NCBI GenBank assembly: GCA_021833625.1
Contig: JAKBEU010000001.1
Span: 372,001-436,000, forward strand
DNA from: a bacterium
GTDB taxonomy: Bacteria; Patescibacteriota; Microgenomatia; UBA1406; GWC2-37-13
DNA length: 64,000 nucleotides
Direction: 5' to 3'
Shown here: in pieces, positions 17,630 to 48,765 of the stretch
Layout of the letters: every line of letters begins with the position of its first letter
How positions within the stretch are numbered: the first letter of the stretch is position 1
Notes under the pieces: generated by a model
Seen by the model: only the letters and a program-made list of their open reading frames with translations
Told to the model about the DNA's origin: nothing
Database searches by the model: none
Translations under genes and position numbers: made by a program

Positions 17630-18232
17630 ATGTTGCTCGTCATCGAGGGCATTGATGGTGCTGGCTGCGAAACTCAGGCTAATAGCATTGTTCAAGAGCT
17701 CAAAAAACAATCCAAACCGGTCTATTATATTAAATTTCCCCATTACGATACGCCTGTTGGGAAGATGATCAAAGAATTTTTATACGACAATAAATCCCTT
17801 TCGGTTGACGAACAGTTTTTGCTGTATACGCTCCAATTCGTATTCGACAAACGGGATATAGAACAAAAAATGAAGGAAGGAATCGTCGTTGCGGACCGCT
17901 ACTTCTCAACAACCCTTTGCTACCAAACGCTCGAAGGATTTGACGAAAAAAAAGCACTTTCATTTGCACAGGATTTTGGTATCATTAAGCCCGACGCAAT
18001 TTTGTATCTCGACGTCCCTCCAGAAACAGCCATCAAATGGAAATTCGGGGAAAATAAACCCAAAAATTTCCGGGAAGAAGATCATGTGTTCATTAAACGG
18101 ACGTATGAAAAATATGATGACCTGGTAAAGCGGAACGTCTGGGCAAAATGGATCCGTATACAGGGCGAACAGGCAAAACAAAAAGTTACGGAAGAGATTT
18201 TGAAGGTAATTAATACATTATACCAATTTTGA
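17630..18232 (+). CDS. tmk: Thymidylate kinase-like protein with altered P-loop
   Basis: 200 residues, the usual Tmk length; phosphorylates dTMP to dTDP. The ATG at 17630 starts directly at the P-loop strand MLLVIEGIDGAG. Other motifs fit: VVADRYFSTTLCYQ (DR of the dTMP site), KPDAILYLDVPPETAIKW. The P-loop reads GIDGAGCETQ, so the Walker A Lys is Cys13, which should weaken phosphate binding unless another residue substitutes. The downstream ndk genes follow after 2 nt, so the operon makes dTTP from dTMP. The leaderless promoter sits on the palindrome at 17615-17624. Confidence 0.85.
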   Translation: MLLVIEGIDGAGCETQANSIVQELKKQSKPVYYIKFPHYDTPVGKMIKEFLYDNKSLSVDEQFLLYTLQFVFDKRDIEQKMKEGIVVADRYFSTTLCYQTLEGFDEKKALSFAQDFGIIKPDAILYLDVPPETAIKWKFGENKPKNFREEDHVFIKRTYEKYDDLVKRNVWAKWIRIQGEQAKQKVTEEILKVINTLYQF

Positions 18233-18234
18233 TT

Positions 18235-18816
18235 ATGGAACAGACACTTATCATCCTCAAACCGGATGCAATAAAACGGGGACTTGTCGGGCTCACCATT
18301 GAAACGTTTGAAAAAACAGGGCTTAAGTTAATGGCGGCAAAAATGGTCACCCCTGATGAACAGGTCATAAAAAATCATTATCCCGGAACCAAAGAGTGGA
18401 TAACCGAAATGGGAAACAAAACGCTCTCTTCCTTTAAGCAGGCAGGAAGAGACGTAAAAAAAGAGATGGGAACGGACGACCCCTACAAGCTTGGATCTTT
18501 TGTGTACGAACGTTTAATAAAGTACTGGCAGGAAGGACCAATAATCGTCATGGTGTTTGAAGGACCAAATGCAGTTGCGGTATGTCGCAAATTAAGAGGA
18601 CACACCATTCCCTCCCTTGCCGATGCAGGGACAATACTTGCTCAGTATTCTTTTGATTCGTCCACCCTTTCCTCATCTCTCGACCGAGCCGTCAAAACAT
18701 TTATTCACGCATCAGGAAGTGTGCAGGAAGCAGAGCGAGAAATAAAATATTGGTTTAAAGGCGCACAGTTTGATGTATATTCCCGGGAAGTTGACACATT
18801 ATATTTATCAAAATAA
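18235..18816 (+). CDS. ndk: Nucleoside-diphosphate kinase, first of a tandem pair
   Basis: 193 residues from the ATG at 18235 (an in-frame TTG lies 6 nt earlier). Phosphorylates NDPs through a phospho-His. Motifs: IILKPDAIKRG (ATP-site Lys), FIHASGS with the active His (family NxxHGSDS). It is ~45 residues longer than a usual bacterial Ndk (140-150) because of an insertion around residues 45-90, before the conserved VMVFEG strand. The usual PGTIRGD loop reads AGTILAQY, losing the Arg that contacts the phosphates, so this copy may be less active or work with its neighbour. It follows tmk by 2 nt. Confidence 0.88.
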   Translation: MEQTLIILKPDAIKRGLVGLTIETFEKTGLKLMAAKMVTPDEQVIKNHYPGTKEWITEMGNKTLSSFKQAGRDVKKEMGTDDPYKLGSFVYERLIKYWQEGPIIVMVFEGPNAVAVCRKLRGHTIPSLADAGTILAQYSFDSSTLSSSLDRAVKTFIHASGSVQEAEREIKYWFKGAQFDVYSREVDTLYLSK

Positions 18817-18818
18817 CT

Positions 18819-19403
18819 ATGAAAAAACAAAAAGCACTCATCATCATCAAACCGGACGCAGTTCAACGGGGCTTAAGCGGAACTATAGTAAAACGGTTCG
18901 AACAGGTCGGTCTGACCATTATCGGATTTAAATTCCAAAAAGCGGACGAAAAAACCGTTATCGCACACTATCCAAGCACTGATGCATGGTTTGAAAAGGT
19001 GGGAAAAAGGACGCTCAACAATTGCCAGGTAAAAGGAATTGACGTAAAAGACACATTTAAAACGGATGATGCAATCACAATTGGAAAACAGGTCAAACAA
19101 TGGCTTATCACCTACTTTCAGGAATCCCCTGTCCTTGTGATGGCGGTTGAAGGATATGAAGTAATTGAAATAGTCCGTAAATTGTCCGGAAACACCATTC
19201 CCGTCCTGGCAGCCCCCGGTACCATCCGTGGAGATTTTTCGCATGATTCTATAGACTTAGCAAACGAAACATGCCGCCCGCTTCGCAATGTCATCCATGC
19301 TTCAGATGCGGTTGAAGACGGCGAAAAAGAAGTTGCTTTGTGGTTTACGCCGGATGAACTATTTTCTTACGTCCGTTGCGACGAGAAGATAATGTTCCCG
19401 TAA
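18819..19403 (+). CDS. ndk: Nucleoside-diphosphate kinase, second of a tandem pair
   Basis: 194 residues. Same long form as the preceding gene but with canonical motifs: IIIKPDAVQRGL, AAPGTIRGDFS (Arg present) and NVIHASDAVEDGE with the catalytic His. It starts 2 nt after the stop of the first copy. The shared insertion shows that the pair arose by duplication of an already long ancestor, and the sequences have diverged widely since. Most likely the main NDP kinase; a hetero-oligomer with the first copy is possible. Confidence 0.9.
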   Translation: MKKQKALIIIKPDAVQRGLSGTIVKRFEQVGLTIIGFKFQKADEKTVIAHYPSTDAWFEKVGKRTLNNCQVKGIDVKDTFKTDDAITIGKQVKQWLITYFQESPVLVMAVEGYEVIEIVRKLSGNTIPVLAAPGTIRGDFSHDSIDLANETCRPLRNVIHASDAVEDGEKEVALWFTPDELFSYVRCDEKIMFP

Positions 19404-24330: not shown

Positions 24331-27300
24331 TTATCTCAGTATAGACGTTCCTTTCAGGAATCCAAATGTCTTTGATAAATTATCAATAACCAGGTTGAGG
24401 GCGTCTTTCGTCGATTTCGGAGTAATAATAACAGTATCGAGTGATTGTCCAACGTTCCCCGCCTTATCCTTTGAGAGCGTATGTAGGTGATATATTTTTG
24501 AAGGACTTAAGCTTGTTATCGTCACGGAATGATTCATAGTAAGATTGGTATCTTCCTGCGTTGTCTGATTATACGTCGTGCCCGTTCCCTGTCCATATTC
24601 CACCTGGGTTGTTCCCGGCTCGTCAGTGTCCCATGTTACGACTATTTGTGCCTGTGCATTGTCTCCTACGCCAATAATGGACGTTTCCACACTCAGGTTT
24701 TGAATTTCCGGAGGTCGAACGTCGTTTGCCGTCTTCAGATTCCGCGTCTCTGTTTTAGCTTCATTTCCTGCTGAATCCTTCCCTTTTATCAAAATGGTGT
24801 AGTCAGTATTGTCAAGTAGATTTTTTAATATTACCTCATGATTTGTTTTAAGCACAAGACTAATGTTATCCTGCGTGAGTTGAGGAGTTTGTGTTGGATA
24901 GTAAGAAACTATAGTGCTTGCAAGCGTATTTGTTGTCCACAACAATCGCAGTGTTGCCGTCGGCATTCCGACGACTTGTTGTGTCCGTAAGTTCATTATC
25001 TTAGGAGTCGGAAGAGTAGTGAATGTATAGTCATCGCTGTAATAGGTGTTTGCTTCGTCATCCTCTGCGGCAACACGAAGATGGTATAAGGATCCCTCAG
25101 TAAGCGTGTCAACTTCAATTGTATAAGCTGTTTCCGACTTTGACGTCGAAATTCCTTTTAGGCTCCCATACGAAATAGTTTTCCCATATTGAACGGTTGC
25201 CTTGATTGCTCCCTTTATTGTAAATGTCACTTCAGCTGAGTTGATATTTATCCGACTAAACTTCACACTAGACACAAATGGAGCTGGATTTGTCGAGAAA
25301 CTAAGTTCGTCGGAATGGCCGGTGTTTCCATCTTCATCTGTCCAGATGGCTTGATAGTAATATGTGGTCCCTGGGTCAAGACTATTTAATGCGATGGAAT
25401 GAGAAGAAACCTGCTCGGAAGAACCCGCTTCATTATCATACGAACCGCTCTTTTTTCCATACTTTACAAACGAATTGCTCTTACGATTGGTGGACCAATT
25501 AATAAGCGCTGATTTCGTTTTAACTGTTGCAGATTGGCTCGCAACAAGTTCAGGTGCAACACGCCATTTCCCATCAGGTAATAAATGAACTGTTGACGAA
25601 ACAGGAGAACACTGATTCGTTGTGTTACACGCCTTCATACAGTAATAATTTTCCACCTGGTTAAGATTCACGTCTATATATGATGTTTGTATTGTCTGAG
25701 CAACATACCCAAAGATGGAGCTATCGGTTGTACAATTTGCTCCAGAAACTGTCGATCTGTATACCTGATAATATGCCACTCCCGCGGAGCCACTCGATTC
25801 GGGAGCATCCCACGATAACGCCAGACGCCACTTACTTGTTTCTTTTATTGAGACGTCCGCAATGTCCGTACTTGTCGGCACTCCCGGTGCTGATGTGTCT
25901 GCATAAAAATCTGCTGAGGCATACGAATTATATGAAATATTCCCCACTTCATCTTTTGTAACAATGTAAATTGTGTTCTTGCCTACCTGGTTTGCATAAG
26001 AGCTTGAAGGAAGATATGTCTGCGCTCCAATAAGCGTGATATTGTTTGCGGTTGGGAGAGCATTCACCGAATAATAATACTTAAGACCCGCTTGCGTCCC
26101 TCCAAAAAAAGCCGGAGGTGTCCATTTGAATCCAAATTCCCCTGAAGTACTATGCTCCGGAGTTACAATTAAGTTTTGAACCACACCTGGTGCAGTCTCG
26201 AGAAGTTGATAAGTAATCGTTTTATACACAGCAGCAAAGTTTCCTGCGACGTCTTTCGTGCGAAGATAAAATGTATTATTCCCCTCCTGATATGCCGAAA
26301 TACTTGCAATAGATGTGTCGCCTATACATTGCTCCACTGATCCGATAGCTCCCGTTTTATAACAATAACTCACGTCCGGAGTTCCTCCACTCCAAGCAAA
26401 AGTATACGCATTGATGTTTGTGGGACCAGGAGGATCAACCGTCATTGTTGTTGGATTATCCGGTTTTTGATCATTAAACTTATAAACAAAACCAAGGTAT
26501 TCAGAAGGACTTATGTTCCCCGCGTTGTCCTTTGTCTTTAAGCGAAGATAATATGTCTGTCCTGCGGTTAGGTCTTTTGGCGCGTAATTTGTTGTTGTCT
26601 GATATGTTCCTTCGGTAATAATATCGGCGCTTTCAGAAGCGCCAAAATAGACGTAGTATCCAGCAATCCCAGATCCGTTTGTTCCATCTGTAGCTCCTCC
26701 CATTGCGTCTTCCAAGGGCCATTCAAAATAGGGGGAAGGCATATTGCCCCAATTACCTGAGGTAAGCGTCGCACTTTTTGTCGCAGTTGTGTAGCCCGTA
26801 ACAACAGACGGGTTTGACGGAGCATCTATATCCTGATAATAGGAAATGGAATAGTCTCTAATAACTGGGGAATACTTTCCATCTCCGGATGAAAGGTCAA
26901 ATCTTACTTGAATATACCGTTTCATCGAGGAATTGACCTTATACGTTCTATTTGAACCAATAATCTTTTCATCCGTAACTGCCTGCCAATCGTCCCAAGT
27001 ACTGTTGTCGGAAGATGTCCTCGTGTATGCGGTCATCGATGTATTGTTGGCCGGCACATACCCCACATTCAAGTTTGCAAAGCGATAAACCGGTCCAAGA
27101 TCTATTGATCCGGACGTGTAACTTCCCGATTCTTGGAATGAAGTATTTGCCGTTTGCATAATGTAAGAATATAACCCATTGCTGTAGGTATTCGTTCCCG
27201 CTCCTGCAATAACAAGCATGCTTTCCGTTCCAACAGGAGCCGCAGACCCACCCGTATAAATTTGTGCCGGCGCATTTGCAATAGTGGACCAGGAGTTCGT

Positions 27301-30300
27301 TGAGAGGGAGTAAGAATAACAACCAACCTGATTTCCCCCTCGACAGGCATAGAGAAGATCTTCTCCCCCATCCACTAAAAAGCCATCGTTATAGATGGTG
27401 GCTCCCGCAGGCAAATCGGCAACAATCGCGTCATTCCAAGTTGGCGTCCCTGACAGGGGGCCATATCTGTAAAAACCTAGTTGGTTATTCCCACGAAGTG
27501 CATAGATATAGTCATTTTTTATGACCAAATCGGACCCATATGACAAGGAGCTTGGAGCATTTGGCACTATCGCTGCGCTCCATTTATGAGCAGAGGTTCC
27601 CTGCGTATCAAACTTATACATTGCAGAGCTTCCTCCTCCGGGTGTCCAGAAAATATAGCGCGATCCATCATATACCATCGTAGTCCCCGTATTGGAATCA
27701 ATGGGTGGCGGATCAAGCGTTTCTTCTGACCATGTATCGGTCGCGATATCGTACACGAAAAGTTTTCGATAATACGAACTTGTCGTTGCGTATATCTTGT
27801 TGTGAGTTGACTCATACACCAATTTTCCTCCGTTATAGAATCCTGCGGGAGCATCTGCAAGATTTGTCGTTTCGCCCGTGGTTGAATTATATCGGATAAA
27901 AAGATTGTCAAAATTACCCCTGGTGAGATAATAATTGTTTTCATCCCCTTTGATTATATCGGCACCATAATTAAACGTTCGTACATCATTTCCCCTATAC
28001 CAACCTCCGAAGAGGCCGACATTAGGAATCATCCACGATTGTTTTGCAATATTATATGTATACAGCTGACTTCCTCCGGCACCCCTCATTACATATAGCG
28101 TACCATTCACGTTCCGAATCGTACTTCCCGCAGAAATTCCCAAAGGAGCATCAGGCAAACTACTCCACGTGCGTGATGCAATATCATATTTGAAGAGAAG
28201 AGTAGTTCCCCAACCGGCTATGTAATAAATCGCATTGGTTTTCGCATCATATTGTATGTTCGAGCCGGCATTCGCCAATGCGGGGAGATTTGGTAGTTGG
28301 GACCACGTGTTGTTATCCGGATTGTATGAAGAAAACCCCGATCGCCCTCCTCCTTGCAAAGCATAGAACGTATTGTTCCCCGCATCAAATGCGAGATCCG
28401 CACCATCAGATATATTGTTATTCACTTGATTGTAGGGAGCTCCAAAATCAACATTTGCCAAAACTTCCCAGCTATCCGCCTGGGTATCATAACGCATAAA
28501 GGCATCATCATTATTTCCTTTAAGGGCATAAATATAATGACTACCATCAAATGCAAGAGATCCTCCATAGCTGATGGGTTGCGGAGCATCTGCTGCAGCC
28601 TCATCGCTCCACGTATCGGTTGCAATGTTATAGCTCCAAAAACTTGTCGTATTCCACCCTTTTGTTCCGTATAAATATCCAGCCGGACCCTCAATAGTGT
28701 CGTCTCCATAGTATACGGTCGAAGGAAGATTTCCCTTGGTTGTCCACGTGTCGGTATTTATGTCATATTCATAAAACGACTGGCTTCCATAGCCCCTGTT
28801 TAAATATAGCTTGTTTGTTGAGGCAACATAAGCAAACCCGGATCCATAATAAATGCCTGAAGGCGCCACACTTAACCGTTGTTGTTGCCAAAATCCCGGT
28901 TTTGAGGACAGTGAAATCTGATCTCCTACGGAAGAGGTGTTGGTTGAGGTGCCATCAGAAAAATCCGCTGAACTCGTCTTTGTCTCGGTCTGAGGAGGGG
29001 AAACGCCGGCATAAACATAAGAGAATCCCGTTGTTGCGGTAGAGATATTCCCGCTCGTATCTTTTGTTTTTAATCTCAAATAGTACGTCTGTCCTTTTAT
29101 CATTGGTACGGTGACCAAATAGTTTGTATTTGTCTTATAAACGCCCAGCGTTTCCGGATCAGCTCCGGGAGTAGTTCCGAAATAGACATAATATCCTGCA
29201 ACAGCAGTTTGACCATCTGTCGCCCCTGACCACGTAAAGTAAGGGGATGTGTATCGATAGCTCTGGCCTGATGTGATGCTTATTCCTCCTGCTGCTTGAG
29301 AAACCCCCGTAAACGATGAGGGATTAGTTGGCGCAATCTCATCTCCCACATAGTTTAAAGTGATTGAATCCACTGTGGGAGTTTGAACTCTTCCTGCTGA
29401 AGCATTCAAGGTGGCGCGGACTTGAAAGTAATTGCCAGGAGGGGAGGAAATAATGTCTCCGTTCACCGGTTGCCATGTACTCCAAGACGTCTTATCAAGA
29501 CTACTCCTCGTTTCAAAGCTCACCGTTGAATTTCCTGGAGTTGTTATCGAAGAAGCAAGCGTAAGCCAGTTTTGGACGTACCCCGTTTCAATAACATTAC
29601 TTGTCCAAATCCCTGTAGCTACATAATTATATTGCGAGGGTGTGTATTGATGGAGCCATATAAGGTTTTGGCCACTAATGGAATACATGTTCCCGTTTGT
29701 ACTATCGATGGTAAGAGATCCGCCATTATACGGTCCAATATCATAATAATATGCTCCCTGCAGATAAGGAAGTCTGCGCCAAGAGTTGGTAGAAATGATG
29801 TATTCCCAAAAGTCTTTTTTATAATATCCTGCCTGAAAGAATATCTTTCCTCCATAGTAGCGCATATCCGTTCCCCAGTTGGGAGCAAAAGGGAGACTGT
29901 TGACAGCAGTCCATGCATCATTTCCTATCGTGTATTTTAGCAGCGTTGATGTCCCATAACCTCCGGAATAATAAATATCTGTCCCGTCGGTTGTCATGCG
30001 TGCCCCATATCCTGCTTCTGCGTTATCCGGTAGATCGGCGACGCTTAGATCGTCCCACACATCGTTTGCTATCTTATAACGCCAAAAGGAGCGTGAATTA
30101 CCACCCCGCGTTGCATAAATAAAACCTCCACTTCCCGGATAAACCAAGGTTCCGCCGTAATATGTCGAAGCGGGCGTAACCGCGGTAAGAGTCGTCCACG
30201 AATCCAGAGCGGTATCATATCTATAAAATGCATTTGTGTTACTTCCTCTAAAGAAATAGAGACTACTTCCCACGACAACTCCCTTTGTATCATCGTTAAA

Positions 30301-31503
30301 ATTCCCGGGCGCAGCACTGAGACTTGTCCAAAGCCCCGTCGCAATCTCATACTTATAAAATAGCGCTGAGTTATTCCCTCTCATGTAATAGAGAAATCCA
30401 TTGTAGTATAGGAGGTCAGCTCCAGAACCCGGAGTATTCGGAAGATCCGTTGGTCCGAGAAAAGTATCTGTTGTCGGATGATATTTCCAAAAATCATATT
30501 GGCCGTTTCCTCTGAATACATATACATAATCATCTGCCGCATTATAAACTGTTCCAATATATCTTGTGGCCTGAGGGGTATTGGCAAGTGTCGTCCAAAT
30601 ATTGTCAATAATGTCGTATTTGTAAAAAGTCTGGGTTGCCTGATCGCGCGTAATAAATACTTCGTGCCCCCTTATCGAGGCGCTTTTATCTTCGCTGATT
30701 GTTGCCGGAGCTGCAGCAAGAGCTGTAATACCATCGGTCATTGTCGTATACCACACGTTCGCAGCAATGTTATATCGATATATTGTTGTTGTTCCATTTC
30801 CTCTTGTTGCATAGAGATTTCCATTGTAATAAACGAGTGTTGCTCCTGTCCCCATGGTTGCAGCAGGCACTGACATAGTAGACCACGTGTTTGTCGCGAC
30901 CGTGTATTTCCAAAAATCGGTTGTCGAAGTCCCTCGCAGGCAGAATATGTTCGTATTGTCAGTTGTACACGCACCTCCTCCATATACGAGATCGGGCATA
31001 TTCGCAAGAATTGTCCACGTATCCGTCGCAATAGAATAGCGCATGAAGTCTTTTTGATATCCTCCAAACTCCGCATAAATATACCCCCCAAGAGAGATAA
31101 GCTGCGCTCCCGGATAACTGAATTTGGGGGCAGGAGCAAGTGTTTGCCACTTGTTTTCTGTGGGAATATAGCGAGCGAATCGGTTGTCAGCATTTTGCAG
31201 TAAATAAATATAATTTCCGTCAGAGACAACTCCCGCCTGATCTCCCAGAGCAATATTTGGTGTCTTAAAAGAGCGAACTCCCCACAATCCGTCCGGTTTC
31301 AAACTGAGTTTTCCTTCTTGACTTGCAGTATCAGTGCCGTCTTGTATTCCTAATTCAAAATCAACTCGAGAAGTAATGGAATGCGAGGCTGCTGATACCG
31401 GTTCTTGTTGATGAGGCAAATATAAAAAATAAACAAAGAAGGTGGTGAAGAGGTATATGATTAATGAGAAAATTCGCAGAATGGTTATTAGTTTATGTTT
31501 CAT
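24331..31503 (-). CDS. Giant Kelch-propeller / FN3 surface protein (2390 aa)
   Basis: I use the ATG at 31503; an in-frame TTG at 31521 is less likely. Domains: signal/anchor (~5-32), Kelch-like beta-propeller 1 with repeating W-x-x-L-x-x-x-P and FYRYD-type motifs (~60-620), a beta-sandwich (SFETRSSLDKTSW, ~640-725), an FN3-like module ending YLRLKTKDTSGNIS, then a second copy of the same set (propeller ~860-1440, sandwich with TRTSSDNSTWDDW, FN3-like YLRLKTKDNAGNIS), and finally 5-6 FN3/PAP-N-like domains (~1660-2385; DPGTTYYYQAIW, TLTEGSLYHLRVAAED). It is an exported adhesin or glycan-binding scaffold. No LPxTG or lipobox is seen. First gene of a six-gene unit with an ABC exporter and prepilin peptidase. 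Confidence 0.88.
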   Translation of the reverse strand: MKHKLITILRIFSLIIYLFTTFFVYFLYLPHQQEPVSAASHSITSRVDFELGIQDGTDTASQEGKLSLKPDGLWGVRSFKTPNIALGDQAGVVSDGNYIYLLQNADNRFARYIPTENKWQTLAPAPKFSYPGAQLISLGGYIYAEFGGYQKDFMRYSIATDTWTILANMPDLVYGGGACTTDNTNIFCLRGTSTTDFWKYTVATNTWSTMSVPAATMGTGATLVYYNGNLYATRGNGTTTIYRYNIAANVWYTTMTDGITALAAAPATISEDKSASIRGHEVFITRDQATQTFYKYDIIDNIWTTLANTPQATRYIGTVYNAADDYVYVFRGNGQYDFWKYHPTTDTFLGPTDLPNTPGSGADLLYYNGFLYYMRGNNSALFYKYEIATGLWTSLSAAPGNFNDDTKGVVVGSSLYFFRGSNTNAFYRYDTALDSWTTLTAVTPASTYYGGTLVYPGSGGFIYATRGGNSRSFWRYKIANDVWDDLSVADLPDNAEAGYGARMTTDGTDIYYSGGYGTSTLLKYTIGNDAWTAVNSLPFAPNWGTDMRYYGGKIFFQAGYYKKDFWEYIISTNSWRRLPYLQGAYYYDIGPYNGGSLTIDSTNGNMYSISGQNLIWLHQYTPSQYNYVATGIWTSNVIETGYVQNWLTLASSITTPGNSTVSFETRSSLDKTSWSTWQPVNGDIISSPPGNYFQVRATLNASAGRVQTPTVDSITLNYVGDEIAPTNPSSFTGVSQAAGGISITSGQSYRYTSPYFTWSGATDGQTAVAGYYVYFGTTPGADPETLGVYKTNTNYLVTVPMIKGQTYYLRLKTKDTSGNISTATTGFSYVYAGVSPPQTETKTSSADFSDGTSTNTSSVGDQISLSSKPGFWQQQRLSVAPSGIYYGSGFAYVASTNKLYLNRGYGSQSFYEYDINTDTWTTKGNLPSTVYYGDDTIEGPAGYLYGTKGWNTTSFWSYNIATDTWSDEAAADAPQPISYGGSLAFDGSHYIYALKGNNDDAFMRYDTQADSWEVLANVDFGAPYNQVNNNISDGADLAFDAGNNTFYALQGGGRSGFSSYNPDNNTWSQLPNLPALANAGSNIQYDAKTNAIYYIAGWGTTLLFKYDIASRTWSSLPDAPLGISAGSTIRNVNGTLYVMRGAGGSQLYTYNIAKQSWMIPNVGLFGGWYRGNDVRTFNYGADIIKGDENNYYLTRGNFDNLFIRYNSTTGETTNLADAPAGFYNGGKLVYESTHNKIYATTSSYYRKLFVYDIATDTWSEETLDPPPIDSNTGTTMVYDGSRYIFWTPGGGSSAMYKFDTQGTSAHKWSAAIVPNAPSSLSYGSDLVIKNDYIYALRGNNQLGFYRYGPLSGTPTWNDAIVADLPAGATIYNDGFLVDGGEDLLYACRGGNQVGCYSYSLSTNSWSTIANAPAQIYTGGSAAPVGTESMLVIAGAGTNTYSNGLYSYIMQTANTSFQESGSYTSGSIDLGPVYRFANLNVGYVPANNTSMTAYTRTSSDNSTWDDWQAVTDEKIIGSNRTYKVNSSMKRYIQVRFDLSSGDGKYSPVIRDYSISYYQDIDAPSNPSVVTGYTTATKSATLTSGNWGNMPSPYFEWPLEDAMGGATDGTNGSGIAGYYVYFGASESADIITEGTYQTTTNYAPKDLTAGQTYYLRLKTKDNAGNISPSEYLGFVYKFNDQKPDNPTTMTVDPPGPTNINAYTFAWSGGTPDVSYCYKTGAIGSVEQCIGDTSIASISAYQEGNNTFYLRTKDVAGNFAAVYKTITYQLLETAPGVVQNLIVTPEHSTSGEFGFKWTPPAFFGGTQAGLKYYYSVNALPTANNITLIGAQTYLPSSSYANQVGKNTIYIVTKDEVGNISYNSYASADFYADTSAPGVPTSTDIADVSIKETSKWRLALSWDAPESSGSAGVAYYQVYRSTVSGANCTTDSSIFGYVAQTIQTSYIDVNLNQVENYYCMKACNTTNQCSPVSSTVHLLPDGKWRVAPELVASQSATVKTKSALINWSTNRKSNSFVKYGKKSGSYDNEAGSSEQVSSHSIALNSLDPGTTYYYQAIWTDEDGNTGHSDELSFSTNPAPFVSSVKFSRININSAEVTFTIKGAIKATVQYGKTISYGSLKGISTSKSETAYTIEVDTLTEGSLYHLRVAAEDDEANTYYSDDYTFTTLPTPKIMNLRTQQVVGMPTATLRLLWTTNTLASTIVSYYPTQTPQLTQDNISLVLKTNHEVILKNLLDNTDYTILIKGKDSAGNEAKTETRNLKTANDVRPPEIQNLSVETSIIGVGDNAQAQIVVTWDTDEPGTTQVEYGQGTGTTYNQTTQEDTNLTMNHSVTITSLSPSKIYHLHTLSKDKAGNVGQSLDTVIITPKSTKDALNLVIDNLSKTFGFLKGTSILR

Positions 31504-31554
31504 TGAGTGTGATACCAACAAAGCAGCTATTTCCCCATTTTAAACTCATACAAA

Positions 31555-36091: not shown

Positions 36092-36170
36092 AGCTAAAAA
36101 AATCAATTTCGGAGATTATCGACGTTTCAAGACGAGGTCTTAAAAAAAACTCCTTAAATAGCAAAAGTAT

Positions 36171-36178
36171 ATTATACA
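36171..36178 (-). promoter_or_regulatory. -10 box (TGTATAAT) of typA
   Basis: TGTATAAT on the minus strand; the first downstream start is the typA ATG at 36091. Confidence 0.45.
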
Positions 36179-36221
36179 CCTATATGTGCCGATTTTGGGA
36201 GGAAGTGAGGGATAATAGTAT

Positions 36222-36247
36222 AAAAAAGCTCATTGCAGATAAGCAAT
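36222..36247 (-). terminator. Weak candidate terminator after the Nudix gene
   Basis: Minus strand: ATTGC (36247-36243) pairs with GCAAT (36236-36232), followed after four bases by TTTTTT (36227-36222). The stem is short and includes the stop codon region. Confidence 0.3.
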
Positions 36248-36637
36248 ATTCTGCTTGTACACCGTAATTATGGGAATATGCGGAGGAAAAATGTTGTGGG
36301 GAAGACTATTTATGTCAAACCACTCCCATCCCGCGCATTTATCCTTCTCGACGCAGGTGATTGTTCCTTCGTACTCGCTTACGACAAAATTCACCTGAAT
36401 ATACATTTCACTTGGCAGCCGTTCATCGACAATTGAGCTAAAGCGGAGACGTAAAGCCCTCACTCCACATTCTTCGTATAACTCCCTTTTCACCCCATCG
36501 ACCAATCGCTCACCCTGCTCTAAATGTCCTCCCGGAAGGCCATACGTTCCCTCTCCTTTGCAGTTTTTTCTGAGGCCCAACAGTAGTTTGTTGTCTTTGA
36601 TGACCAGCCCGTTGCATCCGATATTTGTTTTAATCAT
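36230..36637 (-). CDS. Nudix hydrolase
   Basis: 135 residues. A complete Nudix box is visible from residue ~37: GGHLEQGERLVDGVKRELYE followed by ECGV, i.e. Gx5Ex7REUxEExGU with all metal-binding Glu. It hydrolyses a nucleoside diphosphate linked to another moiety in the cytosol. Last gene of a three-gene operon with ATGA overlaps (PLP enzyme, GNAT, Nudix), so its substrate may be a product or side product of that cluster rather than 8-oxo-dGTP. Confidence 0.92.
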   Translation of the reverse strand: MIKTNIGCNGLVIKDNKLLLGLRKNCKGEGTYGLPGGHLEQGERLVDGVKRELYEECGVRALRLRFSSIVDERLPSEMYIQVNFVVSEYEGTITCVEKDKCAGWEWFDINSLPHNIFPPHIPIITVYKQNIAYLQ

Positions 36638-37098
36638 AATGTTTTTTCCATATAATACGCCCTTATGTTTTCATTAGTCAGCAAAAATCCTCTTTTCTGA
36701 TAAAGAATATGCGCAACCTTAAACTGTTTATTTGTCCAGACCTCTATTTTTTTATATCCTTTCTGTATACAGTACTCTATTGCCCTGTCAAGAAGTTGTG
36801 AACCAAATCCCCGTCCCTGCTGTTCTTTTTTGACGTAAAAGCGCCGTATTTCCGCTACGTCTCCATTTGATGCTATCCCTATCGTTCCTATCACCTGCCG
36901 CTTCAGTTTGAGTACATAGAACATCCCTCCACTGTCTACATAATATTTCTTCGGATCTTCAAGATCATAGTGATACTTTGAATTATAGGTAAAGCCATAT
37001 TCTTTTGAAACCTCCAAAACCAGTGCCTTTACCTGTTTTTGATCTGATGCAGAAAGTTCCATAAAGACCGGGTTTGCTCCCTGTGTGATAGTGCTCAT
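36634..37098 (-). CDS. GNAT-family N-acetyltransferase
   Basis: 154 residues. Acetyl-CoA binding motif A is clear: VAEIRRFYVKKEQQGRGFGS (Q/RxxGxG/A), followed by LLDRAIEYCIQKGYKKIEVWT and the C-terminal AHILYQKRGFLLT strand of the GNAT fold. Transfers an acyl group to an amine; substrate unknown. It overlaps both neighbours by 4 nt (ATGA), so it is translationally coupled to the PLP enzyme upstream and the Nudix hydrolase downstream. Confidence 0.9.
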   Translation of the reverse strand: MSTITQGANPVFMELSASDQKQVKALVLEVSKEYGFTYNSKYHYDLEDPKKYYVDSGGMFYVLKLKRQVIGTIGIASNGDVAEIRRFYVKKEQQGRGFGSQLLDRAIEYCIQKGYKKIEVWTNKQFKVAHILYQKRGFLLTNENIRAYYMEKTL

Positions 37099-39305
37099 AA
37101 TGTGTTTTTTATTGTTTGTTTGATAAGTGCATCCGCAACTTTTTTCCCAAATGTTTCAAGCTCACTGCATGGCGTCTCAAGTCCAAAACTGACGCGGGGT
37201 ATCTTTTGAAAGAATAGTGCCCCCCTATACGAAAATTCACCGGGAATAAAGGTGACCCGGGTAGTATTGAGTCCAAAACTGCTTGCTCTTTCATACCCTG
37301 GAGTTGAGTCGAAGGGCTTTACCACCGATTTGACTATTTTTTTGAAGAACTTCTTATAACAATAAGACACTTCACTTATTTCCCCGTTCATATTCTTCAT
37401 CCGATAAAAAGGAAAGCGAAACCCCCTATTTTGAACCGCCCGTATCATCGTTGACATAGGAGGGATAAGATAGATGTACTGGGAAGAATCCCTGTTTGAC
37501 TCAATCCTCCATCTGAACTGCGACCCCGTCCTTCGCATTGCGCTCATAAATCCTTTTTGAAACTGTTTCCCTTTGTCCCACAGGCGGGCGGTGATTGCCT
37601 CTACTTCCTTTGCATTGAATGTGTGAAAAAAGCATAAGTCTCTGAGACTTATTGTTGCATGAGCGGTCAACAGGGCTTTACGTATAAAGGGTTTTATTTT
37701 CTCACCCCCTTCATATACCACGACTCCCGCAAAATGATTCCTGTCTCCGTGTCTGTATTTTGTCAGACTCGCAATTTCAAACAGATGGAGATTCTCCGGC
37801 TGTTTTTCACCCTTTGGTACAGTCCGATACAACAAATTGGTTGTCTTATCAACAATGAGGAAATAATTCTCCCGGGGATTGTTTTTTGCAATGCGTAGTA
37901 TGGACCAAATAAAGTCATCACGCTGTCTTTTATAATCTGTCGTCCTTTTCAGCGTAGTGTAGGGAGGATTGGAGCTTACATTTATACAAAAAACACGAAC
38001 GTGAGCATCCGTCATATTTCGAGCGATGGAAAACTCCCTCCGGATAATCGTATCCGCTTCATAATAGAGACCCTTTTGTATATATGCTAAAGGGCGATTT
38101 TTTTTCGTTTTGTCAAAGTAATGTGCCGCAGCATATACTCCGAATGTCGTGGCGCTCAGTCCCGTTCTTGTTAAAATAAGCACCGGTTGTTTGTGGGGTG
38201 CACCATGCCGATCACCCATAAGCACGCTCATATAGCTGTTTATGAGCGTTTTTTGCGCATGATGGGCAAACGTCTTTTCATTCTCCCCTGCAAGCAGTGA
38301 ATAGAGCTTCGACTGCTTTGCGGTTGTGTATGCCGACACATCCCTCAAAGCAGCAAGAGAAATTATTTCATCCCATATAGCTTCCAACTCCTTGAGTACG
38401 TTCGCTTTGCCAAGTCCCTTACCGCGCTTCACTTCCCTTCCCGCACTAAGTTCCGTTTTGTTGGCTCCCCTCATAAGGGATAGCCCACCCTCTAAAAGGG
38501 TTTCCAATATTTCCTGTCTTGAAGGCTCGGATTGTGGCAAAAAGGAGTTCTCATCCTCTTTTTTCATTCTCCGACCCGATAAAGCAAAGCCGCTCACTTC
38601 CTCATTGAGGTGAAACGGCAGAATGAGCATTGCCGGGCTGTCGTGCCGGGCATATATGTGGAGCGCTTCCTCTATCTCATCCTTGGTAAGAGTGCGGTTA
38701 AAATAGTATGCGGCAAGTCGTTTTTTATTTGATACTTCTATGATTTTTTTGAATTCATTCAGAGAGTAAATAGGTATGTAGAGAGCCTTTTTGGATAGCT
38801 CCTTGAAATACGCATCCATTTCTTTTCTTTTTACATAATGCGTCCGCGTTATTTCCGTGGGAAAAATATCCAAAGGTTGATCTGAAAACTCAAGCTGGCA
38901 GAGGCCTTCTTCTTCAAACAGGTATCCTGCCCTCCCGTATGCTTTTGTCCCGATATTCATGTGTATACGCGGACTCATTTCGTCCATGACAAAAATATCC
39001 AATAATGAAACAACGGTTCGTATACAGTTTTTCGCAAGCTGTTTTTCCGCGAAACCCCAGGAACTGTTACGATACTCTTTTAAGAGAGAAACCAGCCGTA
39101 CTATCAACTTTCTTTCCGCATCGGTGCATTTTTGAGAGTGTTCGGTAATGAGATGTGTTAAAGAGTGGATACATGCATTAATCTGAAAAATGGGGGCAAC
39201 TCTTGGGAGGAGGAGGGGAACAGAAACACTATGACGGAGAAATGTGCTTTCTTTCTTGCCGTTTTTTTGTCTATCTGTCTGTGACAGGACAAACAACCTC
39301 TTCAT
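37095..39305 (-). CDS. Divergent fold-type I PLP enzyme with a ~330-residue N-terminal extension
   Basis: 736 residues. The C-terminal ~380 residues align by motif with Cys/Met-metabolism PLP enzymes such as the gene at 47731-48765: PVLILTRTGLSATTFGVYAA (cofactor phosphate loop), NVSSNPPYTTL (the ESxxNP-like turn), FLIVDKTTNLLYR (VDNT-like; Asp binds the PLP ring) and ASLTKYRHGD (SxTKY; Lys forms the Schiff base). The N-terminal part (~1-330) is unlike anything I recognise. I use the ATG at 39305, 9 nt from a TATAAT; an in-frame GTG lies at 39332. It probably acts on an amino acid or peptide together with the neighbouring ATP-grasp, GNAT and Nudix enzymes. Confidence 0.72.
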   Translation of the reverse strand: MKRLFVLSQTDRQKNGKKESTFLRHSVSVPLLLPRVAPIFQINACIHSLTHLITEHSQKCTDAERKLIVRLVSLLKEYRNSSWGFAEKQLAKNCIRTVVSLLDIFVMDEMSPRIHMNIGTKAYGRAGYLFEEEGLCQLEFSDQPLDIFPTEITRTHYVKRKEMDAYFKELSKKALYIPIYSLNEFKKIIEVSNKKRLAAYYFNRTLTKDEIEEALHIYARHDSPAMLILPFHLNEEVSGFALSGRRMKKEDENSFLPQSEPSRQEILETLLEGGLSLMRGANKTELSAGREVKRGKGLGKANVLKELEAIWDEIISLAALRDVSAYTTAKQSKLYSLLAGENEKTFAHHAQKTLINSYMSVLMGDRHGAPHKQPVLILTRTGLSATTFGVYAAAHYFDKTKKNRPLAYIQKGLYYEADTIIRREFSIARNMTDAHVRVFCINVSSNPPYTTLKRTTDYKRQRDDFIWSILRIAKNNPRENYFLIVDKTTNLLYRTVPKGEKQPENLHLFEIASLTKYRHGDRNHFAGVVVYEGGEKIKPFIRKALLTAHATISLRDLCFFHTFNAKEVEAITARLWDKGKQFQKGFMSAMRRTGSQFRWRIESNRDSSQYIYLIPPMSTMIRAVQNRGFRFPFYRMKNMNGEISEVSYCYKKFFKKIVKSVVKPFDSTPGYERASSFGLNTTRVTFIPGEFSYRGALFFQKIPRVSFGLETPCSELETFGKKVADALIKQTIKNTL

Positions 39306-39314
39306 ACCTCCCCT

Positions 39315-39370
39315 ATTATACACTATTGTCACCTGCTAAACTATAAAAAGGACAGTAAATGATGTATAAT
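39315..39370. promoter_or_regulatory. Divergent promoters of the PLP and ATP-grasp genes
   Basis: TGTATAAT occurs on both strands: minus at 39322-39315 (ATG of the PLP gene at 39305, 9 nt away) and plus at 39363-39370 (ATG of the ATP-grasp gene at 39387). Both transcripts would have leaders of about 0-10 nt. The shared region is 81 nt. Confidence 0.5.
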
Positions 39371-39386
39371 TGGACAAACGTGAATA

Positions 39387-40739
39387 ATGCGTAACAAAAT
39401 ACTTTTCCTGGAGAAAGTACCATTTATGGGCGTTGAGTTGCTCGACCTTCTTGTCGAAAACTATTATATTGTTTCTTATCACTCCGACAGCACGACCACT
39501 CTCCTTCAGAAAAAAGGATTTCCGGTTGTCTGCTATAAAAATACAAATGCCTCCGAAAACATACTTGGAGGAGACGCAATTGCACGCGTACTTAAAAATA
39601 AAAAATTCATGAAAAAAATTGTTGGCAATAAGGGAACAAAAACCCGCGCCCTTTTCTTTTATACGACAAAAGAAATGGAAAGTCTCTGCAAGTCCCATAA
39701 CATCTCTCTTCTCCTTCCCTCCGTTCGGCTTCAAAAAAAACTGGGTGATAAATTGTCTTTGGAGCAATTTTGTAAACAGATGGGGATAAAGACAAACACA
39801 ACAATCGCGTACAAACGGGTAGCGTATACACCAAGCCGCGCGTATGAAGACTGCGTACAAAAACTGGGGCTTCCTTTTGTCATTCAAAGCAGCTTCGGTG
39901 CTTCGGGAGAGAGTACCTATAAAATTCACTCCGCAGAAGAATTCTTACTATTAAGCAATAAAATATCCGGCGGGCTGCGCGCTTCAAAATATTTAGGAGA
40001 CATTGTCCCGCTCTCCGTCCATATCTGCATTACACGCACCAAGATATTGTTTGAGGGTCCGTATCTACAAATTGTCGGATTCCCGGAGCTTTCCCAAAAT
40101 CCTTTCCAATTTTGCGGAAATGATATGAATCAACATATGCTTACGCAAACGGTAAAGGTAAAAATAAAATCGGCAAGTATAAAACTTGCGCAGTTCGCCC
40201 GGACACTGGGCTATCGGGGAATTTTGGGTATAGATTTCTTATACGACCCATCAAGTAAGGAAGTGTATGTCCAGGAAATAAACAGCAGACTTGTCGGACT
40301 TACGAGACTTATCACGGGCGTTCAAAAAGAACAAAAATTAACACCGCATCTTCTCTCACACATACAGCAATTTGTACCGCTGAAAAATAGCGAAGGGTTT
40401 GTGGAGGGAAATATAAAACTAAACGGACGTAGTTATTCTCAACTTTACATTGCTAATAATGCAACAACTCCACAAAGAGCTACACGTTCTCTCCCGTCCG
40501 GAATATATACTCTCAAAGGCAATAAATTAGCTCTGAAGAAAGAATCACTATTTGTTGCCGATATGACACGGGGGGACATTATGTGCACGTTTGCCGTTAA
40601 TAAAGGAGATAATGTACAGCCAAGCGATATTGTTGCAAAGATAATTCTGAAAGAGGCGGCTATCGAAAAAAAAGCATATCGCCTTACCAAAAAAACAAAA
40701 CACACCGTCGCTCACATCAGAAGATATATTTTGGGATAA
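39387..40739 (+). CDS. ATP-grasp ligase
   Basis: 450 residues. N-terminal pre-ATP-grasp Rossmann-like domain (~1-125), then an ATP-grasp core: KLSLEQFCKQMGIKT, LPFVIQSSFGASGESTYK (the flexible ATP-binding loop), LGYRGILGIDFLYD and VYVQEINSRLVGLTRL, where the E-x-N-x-R Glu/Asn bind Mg. A C-terminal ~100-residue domain ends with a GDNVQPSDIVAKI motif like the hammerhead domain of biotin-dependent carboxylases. It forms an amide from a carboxylate and an amine using ATP. Divergently transcribed from the PLP-GNAT-Nudix operon; a joint small-molecule or peptide pathway is inferred. Confidence 0.82.
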   Translation: MRNKILFLEKVPFMGVELLDLLVENYYIVSYHSDSTTTLLQKKGFPVVCYKNTNASENILGGDAIARVLKNKKFMKKIVGNKGTKTRALFFYTTKEMESLCKSHNISLLLPSVRLQKKLGDKLSLEQFCKQMGIKTNTTIAYKRVAYTPSRAYEDCVQKLGLPFVIQSSFGASGESTYKIHSAEEFLLLSNKISGGLRASKYLGDIVPLSVHICITRTKILFEGPYLQIVGFPELSQNPFQFCGNDMNQHMLTQTVKVKIKSASIKLAQFARTLGYRGILGIDFLYDPSSKEVYVQEINSRLVGLTRLITGVQKEQKLTPHLLSHIQQFVPLKNSEGFVEGNIKLNGRSYSQLYIANNATTPQRATRSLPSGIYTLKGNKLALKKESLFVADMTRGDIMCTFAVNKGDNVQPSDIVAKIILKEAAIEKKAYRLTKKTKHTVAHIRRYILG

Positions 40740-40763
40740 ACTCCCTCCTTTCATTTTCCCGGG

Positions 40764-40834
40764 TTGCCCAACCTGGATTCGAACCAGGATAATCAGATCC
40801 AGAGTCTGATGTCCTACCGTTAGACGATCGGGCA
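40764..40834 (-). tRNA. tRNA-Gln (anticodon CTG)
   Basis: Minus strand: acceptor TGCCCGA/TTGGGCA with the U1-A72 pair typical of tRNA-Gln, D stem GTCT/GGAC, anticodon stem TCAGA/TCTGA around loop CTCTGGA, T arm CCTGG-TTCGAAT-CCAGG, discriminator A followed by CCC, so CCA is not encoded. It reads CAG. It is convergent with the ATP-grasp gene. Confidence 0.93.
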
Positions 40835-40862
40835 ACGACAACCCCGGATATATTTTACACCA

Positions 40863-43306: not shown

Positions 43307-44320
43307 TTAATTAAACTGCTGTAGTAAATTATACACCCTTCGCTTCATCTCTTCAGTAACTTTTACCGATACCGCCCCTACTTCCCGTTGGCCGTACCAA
43401 ACAATGCATCCTAGGGGAGCAATAAGGACCACTGCAAGGGTAAGAAGGTCTTCCTCTCCCTGAACAAGAATTTGATTTACGGCTTTATTATGCCCCATAT
43501 CAAATAACCGTAATAATGCGGTAACCGCGTCCTTCCCAATTGTCCCCTTTTCATTTATGGCGTTATAACGCTCTATTTCTAATATCTCTTTTAGAATTTT
43601 CACGTTTAGGGCTTCCCGCTTTGTTTGACCGTCAATAACAGATAAAAATGGAGAAACTCCCTTTTTTTTCAATTCATATGTCACTACGTCGCCAATCGCA
43701 CACAGATAAAACCGACCTTGAACTGAGGCTAAGTGTTTCATTTCCTCTATTTCTTCTTTAGAGAGCGTAGAAAAGGAAGAGATAACGCGGCCTAGCGGTT
43801 CTCTTAATACTTGCTTTAGTGATTCTGGCAGTATCCTTTTTTCTCTGCTAATTAGGAGCTTATCGTATCTTTTTCCTTCCCTGCTTGTTATCCCTTGACG
43901 GATGCGTTCAGAGGTAATTCTGTCTCCGTACTCATCAAGAACAAAAGGAACCAATTGAACAAAAAGGGGCTTCATGCCGACCTCAATTCGCATATTATTT
44001 ATGGCTTTTGCTCCCGGCAGCGTCTCCTCTGTGACAAATAAAGCTTCAAACGTGCTGTTTTTCGCCGTCGGGCCATAGATATCCTCAATTTGGACTATTT
44101 TTACTTCCTTTTTTTGCTCCGCCGCAAACTCGAGCACATTCCTTTTGCGAAGCATGTATGATTGCAATGAATAGTAGTAGGGTTTGTGCCTTACCATTGC
44201 CCCAGAGGTTATTCCTATCGTCACCTCTTTTCCGCTCTCAAAGCATGCGGAAAGTAATTGTTTGTGCCCTAAGTGGAGATGATCAAACGTACCACCGCAT
44301 ACGACGTGTTGAAACTGCAT
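43307..44320 (-). CDS. Archaeal-type PPAT fused to DUF359-type GTP-dependent dephospho-CoA kinase
   Basis: 337 residues. N-terminal half (~1-150): a COG1019-type pantetheine-phosphate adenylyltransferase with CGGTFDHLHLGHKQLL (the HxGH nucleotidyltransferase motif) and the RITSERIRQGI signature. C-terminal half (~165-335): the DUF359/COG1909 fold, with GDVVTYELKKKGVSP, LSVIDGQTKR, NEKGTIGKDAV and GEEDLLTLAVVLIAPLGCIV-W-YGQ, known in archaea as the GTP-dependent dephospho-CoA kinase. One chain would thus perform the last two steps of CoA synthesis by the archaeal route. A TATTAT box at 44328-44333 lies 7 nt from the ATG; leuS follows after 14 nt. Confidence 0.85.
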   Translation of the reverse strand: MQFQHVVCGGTFDHLHLGHKQLLSACFESGKEVTIGITSGAMVRHKPYYYSLQSYMLRKRNVLEFAAEQKKEVKIVQIEDIYGPTAKNSTFEALFVTEETLPGAKAINNMRIEVGMKPLFVQLVPFVLDEYGDRITSERIRQGITSREGKRYDKLLISREKRILPESLKQVLREPLGRVISSFSTLSKEEIEEMKHLASVQGRFYLCAIGDVVTYELKKKGVSPFLSVIDGQTKREALNVKILKEILEIERYNAINEKGTIGKDAVTALLRLFDMGHNKAVNQILVQGEEDLLTLAVVLIAPLGCIVWYGQREVGAVSVKVTEEMKRRVYNLLQQFN

Positions 44321-47730: not shown

Positions 47731-48765
47731 TCATTCCATCAGTGCCTGACGCAGATCATTAATAATGAAATTAACGTCCTCAATACCCACCGACATTCTC
47801 ACCAAGGTTCCCGTTATTTTTTGTTTTTTCAACTCCTCCTTGGGAGCGGTCCACGTCATCATGGAAAACGGATGAAGCAGTGTCGTCTGGGTTCCCCCAA
47901 AGCTATGCGCAATAGGAATATGCTTTAACTTCATAAGAAATGCCAGAGTGTCTTTTTCATCCCCCCTTATCCAGAATGAAACCACACCAGAAATACCGGG
48001 AAATACGCATCTCTCTACCCTTTGGTGATGGGCAAGAAAGTGGGCAACAAGTCGCGCATTCTTCTGGTGGGCCATCATACGTATTTTTAACGTCTGAATT
48101 CCTCTTAATACAAGCGCACAATCAAATGGACTTGGAACGGCTCCTAAGGTCCACTGGATATGACGCAATTGCTTAAATACAGCTGCATTATTCGTCATAA
48201 CTGCCCCGGATATGACATCGTGGTGTCCCGCAATATATTTGGTAAGACTATGCACGACGATATCTGCCCCACTTTCTAAAGGATGCGAAAAAACGGGTGT
48301 AGGTAAGGTGTTGTCAACAATAAAAAGCGTTTTTTTTCTTTTTATCTTCCCTATCTTTTCAATATTCAAACGCTGTAAACATGGATTAGTTATTGACTCG
48401 CACACCATCATCTGTGCACTTTCCATTCCTCGGCGTAATTCGTTTTCATTTGAGAAATCAACAGACGTATTTTTTATTCCAAACCGCCTAAACGTGTCTT
48501 GGAGCATGCGTGTCGTTCCTTCGTATACCTGGGTGTGACTTAAGACAGTATCTCCCGTTTTAAGTAATGAAAATACCGCAGCCAGTGCCGCAGACCCGGA
48601 CGCAAAAGACAATGCAAAACGCGCTTTCTCAAGACGTGCAAGTTCCGCCTCCAGTGCAAGCCGCGTAGAATTATCCACGCGGCTATATCCCATCTGACCA
48701 GGAAACAGATGCCTGGATATTGTTGAAATGGCAATTGGTTCGATTATCGGCATAAGGTTTTTCAT
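47731..48765 (-). CDS. Cys/Met-metabolism PLP enzyme (cystathionine gamma-synthase/lyase family)
   Basis: 344 residues, slightly shorter than the ~380-400 of CGS/CGL/MGL enzymes. Motifs: LSFASGSAALAAVFSLL (phosphate loop), VCESITNPCLQ (ESxxNP), FIVDNTLPTPVF (Asp for the PLP ring) and VVHSLTKYIAGHHDVISGAV with the Schiff-base Lys. It makes or breaks C-S bonds of sulfur amino acids, releasing thiols, 2-oxoacids or ammonia. Its ATG overlaps the stop of the methyltransferase by 4 nt, so the pair acts together. The operon lies behind two candidate tyrosine attenuators. Confidence 0.9.
   Translation of the reverse strand: MKNLMPIIEPIAISTISRHLFPGQMGYSRVDNSTRLALEAELARLEKARFALSFASGSAALAAVFSLLKTGDTVLSHTQVYEGTTRMLQDTFRRFGIKNTSVDFSNENELRRGMESAQMMVCESITNPCLQRLNIEKIGKIKRKKTLFIVDNTLPTPVFSHPLESGADIVVHSLTKYIAGHHDVISGAVMTNNAAVFKQLRHIQWTLGAVPSPFDCALVLRGIQTLKIRMMAHQKNARLVAHFLAHHQRVERCVFPGISGVVSFWIRGDEKDTLAFLMKLKHIPIAHSFGGTQTTLLHPFSMMTWTAPKEELKKQKITGTLVRMSVGIEDVNFIINDLRQALME

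Follow-up and report, generated by a model that had tools for sequence, protein, structure and literature searches.

BesB, a pyridoxal 5'-phosphate (PLP) enzyme resembling cystathionine gamma-synthase (CGS), and BesA make gamma-glutamyl-propargylglycine. Excerpts of the published account place the BesB step in the beta-ethynylserine pathway (PMC10187165). According to the accessible part of a further report, ThiF/MccB-type clusters for ribosomally synthesized and post-translationally modified peptides (RiPPs) in lactic acid bacteria hold PLP enzymes as well as N-acetyltransferases (PMC12250964), and clusters around azetidine-2-carboxylate synthase, some of them in Patescibacteria, are described in the portion available as small amino-acid modules spread by transfer (PMC11794875). 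The present work concerns a stretch of 64,000 nucleotides, the window, from a patescibacterium with a genome of about 1.1 Mb in three contigs (assembly GCA_021833625.1; the window is part of contig C2). Between the TypA gene and a tRNA-Gln gene it carries a block of four genes, for a 745-residue protein, a GNAT-type N-acetyltransferase, a Nudix hydrolase and an ATP-grasp protein. The real find is a subfamily of predicted PLP enzymes, represented in the block by the C-terminal part of the 745-residue protein, together with its swapped partners; the set of four genes was seen in no other genome of those sampled.

Results

A predicted PLP domain in the 745-residue protein

When the 745-residue protein was compared as a single sequence with Pfam-A, NCBIfam and the PDB, nothing above cut-off was found, and the 379 genomes of the phylum, its own included, yielded a single distant relative (G317, 704 residues, 21% identity). 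The two-row profile led to a 424-residue protein in genome G426, which as a query retrieved further proteins, one in G415 and others on plasmids of Pseudomonas amygdali and Enterococcus faecalis. When six rows were aligned over the domain they have in common and compared with the PDB, methionine gamma-lyase and cystathionine gamma-lyase were matched (E = 3.4e-9). With a profile of 29 rows the match to cystathionine gamma-lyase 8j6n reaches E = 9.8e-19 and that to canonical CGS rows, by hhalign, E = 1.5e-26.

The circularity that arises from the presence of the window protein in these alignments was removed by a leave-out test. A hidden Markov model (HMM) built from 26 shorter relatives, with every long form excluded, detected the window protein at E = 8.6e-6, the long form of G539 at 2.1e-4 and that of G317 at 0.7 (Z = 1e6); an HMM of the 26 short forms plus G317 and G539 raised the window protein to E = 1.3e-15. 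Among 1000 shuffles of the window protein the best E-value with the 26-form HMM was 41, and none fell under 15 in any run. It had been proposed in a first-pass annotation of the window that this protein is a PLP enzyme. That call was right even though single-sequence searches gave it no support, and its origin in chance motif matching is refuted by the leave-out HMM and the shuffles. The last approximately 365 residues are thus a predicted fold-type-I PLP domain, divergent and CGS-like. The only other open reading frame (ORF) of the window that is scored by the family HMM lies at 47731-48765 on the minus strand and encodes a canonical PLP enzyme of Cys/Met metabolism (PF01053, E = 1e-95), in which the profile match begins only at position 44.

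By the Pfam cut-off the long forms are outside PF01053: a match is missing for the window and G317 proteins at E <= 1 and for the G539 protein at E <= 0.1. Several short-form relatives pass (e.g. L061 with 3.3e-12 and L107 with 2.6e-21), L060 stays slightly under the cut-off and L055 has no match. The six-row profile finds matches in 29 of the 233 sampled genomes of the class. The 24 that reach E <= 1e-20 are counted as the family here and the weaker five (G612, G368, G540, G570 and G591) are left out; G612 and G570 are canonical CGS by their sequence motifs. No relatives were gained by single-protein or two-row scans of genome contigs, one of which returned only the G317 contig, by scans of viral contigs, or by tblastn with the window protein against phages and plasmids and with the G317 protein against plasmids.

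Active site and N-terminal region

Alignment of the 29 family rows and a separate alignment including five canonical CGS rows place Gly391 (in the SG turn), Tyr423, Asp495, Ser522, Lys525 and Arg713 of the window protein at positions that presumably matter for catalysis in CGS, Lys525 (codon 37758-37760) being the predicted Schiff-base lysine. All six positions are invariant or at least 90% conserved over the 29 rows. The family tyrosine is followed by Y-Y/F-E/Q, whereas canonical CGS has YGG(T/C), and a loop SFG-x3-TR stands where canonical CGS has an S-L-G loop. The arginine of this loop, Arg692 in the window protein, is present in 29 of 29 family rows and in none of the five canonical ones; one way to read this is that the substrate bears a second anionic group.

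The approximately 330 N-terminal residues are common to the proteins of G317 and G539 only, with about 20% identity, and the PLP domains of these three long forms constitute a 100/100 clade with long branches. The first reading of the sequence had left this region unassigned and so do our searches, as the three-row N-terminal profile has no match in the PDB and the sole Pfam match, DUF1947 at E = 0.034, lies under the cut-off. AlphaFold returned a poor model for the whole protein (pLDDT 35) and likewise for the PLP domain modelled with one relative (mean pLDDT 41, pTM 0.44). The best 13 Foldseek matches of the latter model are all fold-type-I PLP enzymes, the best E-value being 6e-3, with none reaching 0.001 and TM-scores of at most 0.26. 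This would be consistent with a fold-type-I PLP domain and is not decisive.

Recurrent partners of the PLP family and of the ATP-grasp protein

Neighbourhoods of PLP-family genes were compared at 22 loci (L092-L113). ORFs were called mechanically by script with the longest retained where they overlapped, and most neighbours were typed by BLAST clustering from representatives tested against Pfam or NCBIfam. Beside the PLP gene lies an AspA/AstE-type deacylase gene at eight loci and a glutathione-synthetase (GSH-S)/DcsG-type ATP-grasp gene at five; in all 13 stretches holding one of the two, it immediately adjoins the PLP gene. The product of the per-locus adjacency chances is about 10^-9.6, a figure from which shared ancestry has not been removed. 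As in the window, the DcsG-type gene is divergent from the PLP gene in three of the five cases. The deacylase of L108 is DoeB-like, under the cut-off, and the AspA-type gene of L105 has a 4-nt overlap with a Nudix gene. The label of the partner, AspA or ATP-grasp, changes four times on the tree, window included; therefore, such pairs originated, or exchanged a partner, on several occasions.

The eight deacylases, two further loci with a cyclase-type hydrolase (an alpha/beta hydrolase occurs at another two) and the fact that the best-matching solved structures are lyases are what would be expected if the block served salvage or detoxification, a PLP lyase degrading a sulfur-containing or side-chain-activated amino acid while hydrolases, ligases and the GNAT protein aid its uptake or neutralization. 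We regard this as unlikely, given that the acetyltransferase and the ligase of the window build amides rather than break them and that a canonical CGS-type enzyme (47731-48765) is already encoded in the genome.

The relatives of the ATP-grasp protein lead to PLP enzymes of another kind. Twenty regions were fetched, L033 being the PLP region of G317 and the other 19 ATP-grasp regions; at eight of these 19 loci the ATP-grasp gene lies immediately beside a gene for a PALP-type, fold-type-II PLP enzyme, with one gene in between at two more. In a second set (L119-L128) a PALP-type neighbour occurs at nine of ten loci, L125, which could not be judged since its contig stops there, being counted as a miss. 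This recurrent gene pair of other genomes of the phylum is probably an amino-acid ligation pair. Several of the regions also hold genes for a Mur ligase, MraY or MurG, and the distant ATP-grasp relatives (18-25% identity) that adjoin a PALP gene in such surroundings could point to modification of the cell wall or of surface peptides, the ATP-grasp enzyme attaching the amino acid that the PLP enzyme produces to a precursor of the peptidoglycan type. This explanation appears rather improbable for the window, where no cell-wall gene lies in or beside the block and the PLP enzyme differs from PALP in fold type; moreover, the closest ATP-grasp relative (G101, 42% identity) is found outside such a region.

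An acetyltransferase gene, of the GNAT or AAC(3) type, lies downstream of all four plasmid-borne PLP relatives. It follows the PLP gene directly with a 4-nt overlap in P. amygdali, lies four genes on in E. faecalis, within a cluster with ThiF, a major facilitator superfamily (MFS) protein and a decarboxylase, and three genes on in both Mammaliicoccus sciuri and Lactococcus lactis, in the latter within a ThiF cluster. With an HMM lacking any plasmid rows, the M. sciuri and L. lactis proteins score as family members (E = 4.7e-16 and 2.3e-19). The recurrence observed is pairwise: the PLP family goes with an amide-forming or amide-cleaving gene, the ATP-grasp with a PLP enzyme, and the PLP family with an acetyltransferase.

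Some of these regions deserve mention in their own right. The plasmid clusters of E. faecalis (L060:3565-11551) and L. lactis (L184:3629-10219) encode a ThiF adenylase, a CGS-like PLP enzyme and an acetyltransferase and are possibly uncharacterized ThiF-type clusters. At L107:3515-14612 (G592) an 838-residue fusion of PALP and CGS-like parts is encoded amid aconitase-, racemase-, carbamoyltransferase- and MFS-like genes (identified by eye), so that the region looks like a natural-product cluster. The same type of fusion is carried by P. amygdali plasmids.

Distribution of the block

In the congener G001, TypA is followed by 250 bp, tRNA-Gln and the gene for leucyl-tRNA synthetase (LeuRS), and nothing of the block is present. 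This arrangement suggests, as the simplest account, that the block was acquired recently at a variable site next to tRNA-Gln. Among close relatives, the long-form PLP gene was found in one of 57 genomes and the ATP-grasp gene in one of 54, in both cases the genome studied here. G101, which holds the closest ATP-grasp relative, has no PLP-family gene. Relative to TypA and LeuRS, the tRNA-Gln gene (40761-40835 of the window and L149:5542-5616) is encoded on the same strand in the window and G009 and on the opposite one in the congeners G001 and G002, an apparent local inversion beside the variable insertion spot.

Three relatives showed both ends of the interval between TypA and tRNA-Gln, each with a different content: no protein genes in G001, an unrelated 205-residue ORF in G002 and other genes in G009. 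Together with the generic nature of the Nudix and GNAT genes this would fit a collection of independent accessory genes without a joint function. Such a collection seems a poor bet to us, because three of the genes overlap by ATGA with the fourth divergent at 54-81 nt, and because PLP-family and ATP-grasp genes have recurrent, chemistry-matched partners elsewhere.

Organization of the block and its other enzymes

The features of the block are listed in Table 1. Four adjoining genes had been described for this segment, with ATGA overlaps from the PLP gene through GNAT to Nudix; both overlaps (36634-36637 between Nudix and GNAT, 37095-37098 between GNAT and the PLP gene) can be read directly in the sequence, and the ORFs are intact and placed as described. 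The ATP-grasp gene is indeed divergent, and the 81-nt gap originally given holds if the PLP gene starts with ATG at 39305; it shrinks to 54 nt with the GTG at 39332, from which the protein has 745 residues. The minus strand upstream of the ATG reads AGGGGAGG, and this start appears more likely than the GTG.

Table 1. Location of the four-gene block and its components in the window
Feature	Position	Strand	Remarks
Nudix hydrolase, 135 aa	36230-36637	-	intact ORF; PF00293, E = 4.6e-14; last gene of minus-strand operon
GNAT N-acetyltransferase, 154 aa	36634-37098	-	intact ORF; PF00583, E = 9.8e-19; ATGA overlaps with both neighbours
745-aa predicted PLP protein, whole ORF	37095-39332	-	intact ORF
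Predicted fold-type-I PLP domain, approximately residues 381-745 of the 745-aa protein	37095-38192	-	alignments, leave-out HMM, hhalign
N-terminal region of the 745-aa protein, about 330 residues plus linker, no fold assigned	38193-39332	-	
Putative ATP-grasp carboxylate-amine-ligase-like protein, 450 aa	39387-40739	+	intact ORF, divergent from PLP gene
Segment from TypA to tRNA-Gln holding the four-gene block	36107-40760	.	missing in congener G001
tRNA-Gln	40761-40835		beyond ATP-grasp gene; LeuRS also among neighbours

The ATP-grasp protein matches PF02786 (E = 1.5e-5) and also PF02655; its NCBIfam match is PRK06524-like, with E = 1.3e-33 yet far under the family cut-off. Lys122, Asp283, Glu297, Asn299 and Arg301 are invariant in an alignment of 14 rows, and we take the conserved Asp, Glu and Asn to be residues of the Mg site. 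An ATP-grasp domain with these residues is thus predicted, and the protein is a putative ligase of the carboxylate-amine type. Its family profile matches carbamoyl-phosphate synthetase and biotin carboxylase and, weakly, BesA (E = 8.5e-4), a match that was not found when the window protein alone was compared with NCBIfam. The best relative of the GNAT protein (G032, 47%) has no adjoining PLP-family gene. Similar Nudix genes occur in 53 of 172 genomes of the phylum at E <= 1e-10; the Nudix protein is of a common type, and little connects it to the proposed chemistry. In sum, the enzyme classes assigned in the first-pass annotation stand, by Pfam for GNAT, Nudix and ATP-grasp and by the aligned catalytic positions for the PLP motifs.

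Further features of the window lie outside the block. One ORF at 43307-44320 (minus strand) combines a cytidylyltransferase-like domain (PF01467) with DUF359 (PF04019), which we take to be a family of archaeal-type GTP-dependent dephospho-CoA kinases; it would be a fused protein of the CoA pathway, unusual for a bacterium. Two tandem ORFs on the plus strand (18229-18816 and 18819-19403) resemble nucleoside diphosphate kinases, as judged by eye from the start of the sequence, and at 24331-31521 on the minus strand a single ORF of 2396 residues with a hydrophobic start adjoins an ABC-ATPase-like ORF.

Discussion

Proposed function of the block

The observations support a PLP enzyme with an amino-acid substrate, usually partnered by amide chemistry. 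We therefore favour, with somewhat less than even confidence, the view that the block was gained laterally and is a small amino-acid/amide module, in which a nonstandard amino acid would be made and then ligated. The PLP enzyme would convert an amino acid by beta- or gamma-elimination, by replacement or by a related reaction, and Arg692 may hold a second acidic or phosphorylated group of this substrate. The ATP-grasp enzyme would activate a carboxylate as acyl phosphate and join it to an amine, giving an amide or a dipeptide. The GNAT protein may N-acetylate the product or a precursor, either as a modification or as protection of the producer; for comparison, the accessible part of PMC12250964 reports that the GNAT domain of MccE acetylates processed microcin C. 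The Nudix hydrolase could remove a nucleotide by-product, or be incidental, a passenger.

Several observations weigh against such a module. The four-gene block showed neither a transporter nor a carrier protein, nor a precursor peptide, although small ORFs were not inspected for the last. Taken without the short forms, the three long forms hardly match canonical CGS (hhalign probability 1.5%); their link to the PLP superfamily depends on intermediate sequences and is weak without them. The ATP-grasp proteins beside the short forms belong to a different subfamily from that of the window, and the acetyltransferases of the plasmid clusters have no BLAST similarity to the window GNAT or among themselves. 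The four genes stand together in this genome alone among all sampled. The window-type ATP-grasp is missing from G317 and G539, the two other genomes with a long-form PLP gene, which in G539 lies between rpsO-like and infB-like genes (named by eye). Conversely, 42 genomes picked for the window-type ATP-grasp were scanned with the PLP-family profile and none holds a genuine relative; the lone match, in G385, was dropped as its ORF is a canonical CGS. Finally, 13 of the 28 genomes with a PLP-family gene also have the ATP-grasp; they are all 13 members of family f173, none of the 15 others having it, and lineage may account for this co-occurrence.

The distribution (one in 57 and one in 54 close relatives, G317, G539 and the 42 ATP-grasp genomes) rejects the four genes as a conserved operon. 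The neighbourhood co-occurrence of all four, which had been set beforehand as a test of a conserved module, is absent in relatives. Of the original proposal that the set builds and modifies an amino-acid or peptide derivative, the enzyme classes and the pairwise partners speak in favour, and the conserved four-gene set has to be given up.

A more specific version of the make-and-ligate module is a minimal antimetabolite factory, in which the PLP subfamily makes a reactive nonstandard amino acid, the ATP-grasp enzyme masks it by building it into a dipeptide and the co-translated GNAT protein confers self-protection; the N-terminal domain may bind a substrate or carrier. We consider this version unlikely. 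If it were true, the plasmid relatives in Pseudomonas, Enterococcus, Mammaliicoccus and Lactococcus would be parts of related, uncharacterized antibiotic clusters.

To our knowledge, few specialized metabolites have been described from such ultrasmall bacteria, and our literature search turned up no title naming the PLP subfamily or the PLP/GNAT/Nudix/ATP-grasp set in Patescibacteria. The PLP family, marked by SFG-x3-TR, detected at E <= 1e-20 in 24 of the 233 class genomes sampled and recurrently paired with amide-making or amide-cutting genes, offers a testable entry point to the amino-acid chemistry of these bacteria, and the plasmid clusters in culturable bacteria are places where related chemistry could be assayed directly.

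Comparison with known systems

With CGS, cystathionine gamma-lyase and methionine gamma-lyase (PF01053) the predicted domain shares the fold-type-I architecture and the aligned SG, Tyr, D-x-T, S-x-x-K and R-x-S-x-G positions. It differs from them by the missing Pfam match of the window protein, by Y-Y/F-E in place of YGG(T/C), by SFG-x3-TR in place of S-L-G and by some 330 extra N-terminal residues. The PALP/ATP-grasp pair near Mur genes resembles the block in having a related ATP-grasp (E = 5e-31 to 1e-9) with a PLP-enzyme neighbour. In contrast to the fold type II found there, the window has a CGS-like enzyme of fold type I and no Mur genes in the block, and its ATP-grasp gene is surrounded by the CGS-like gene, tRNA-Gln and LeuRS without an adjoining PALP gene. 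The relatives that the PLP domain has on plasmids of E. faecalis and L. lactis lie in ThiF clusters with an acetyltransferase, which links the domain to the ThiF/MccB-type RiPP clusters, whereas the block holds neither a ThiF gene nor an exporter (a precursor was not sought). The azetidine-2-carboxylate clusters, as far as the available part of the source describes them, likewise have ATP-grasp and N-acetyltransferase genes among their neighbours, but their core enzyme AzeJ has the fold of an S-adenosylmethionine-dependent methyltransferase and is not a PLP enzyme (PMC11794875).

The Bes pathway differs in that no halogenase, BesC-like or hydroxylase gene lies in the block, the only part of the genome searched for them. 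Here, too, a PLP enzyme goes with an ATP-grasp amino-acid ligase, and the ATP-grasp family profile of the window weakly matches BesA (E = 8.5e-4), a name taken from NCBIfam and PDB entry 8yi6. BesB and BesA are the nearest worked example of the logic proposed for the block.

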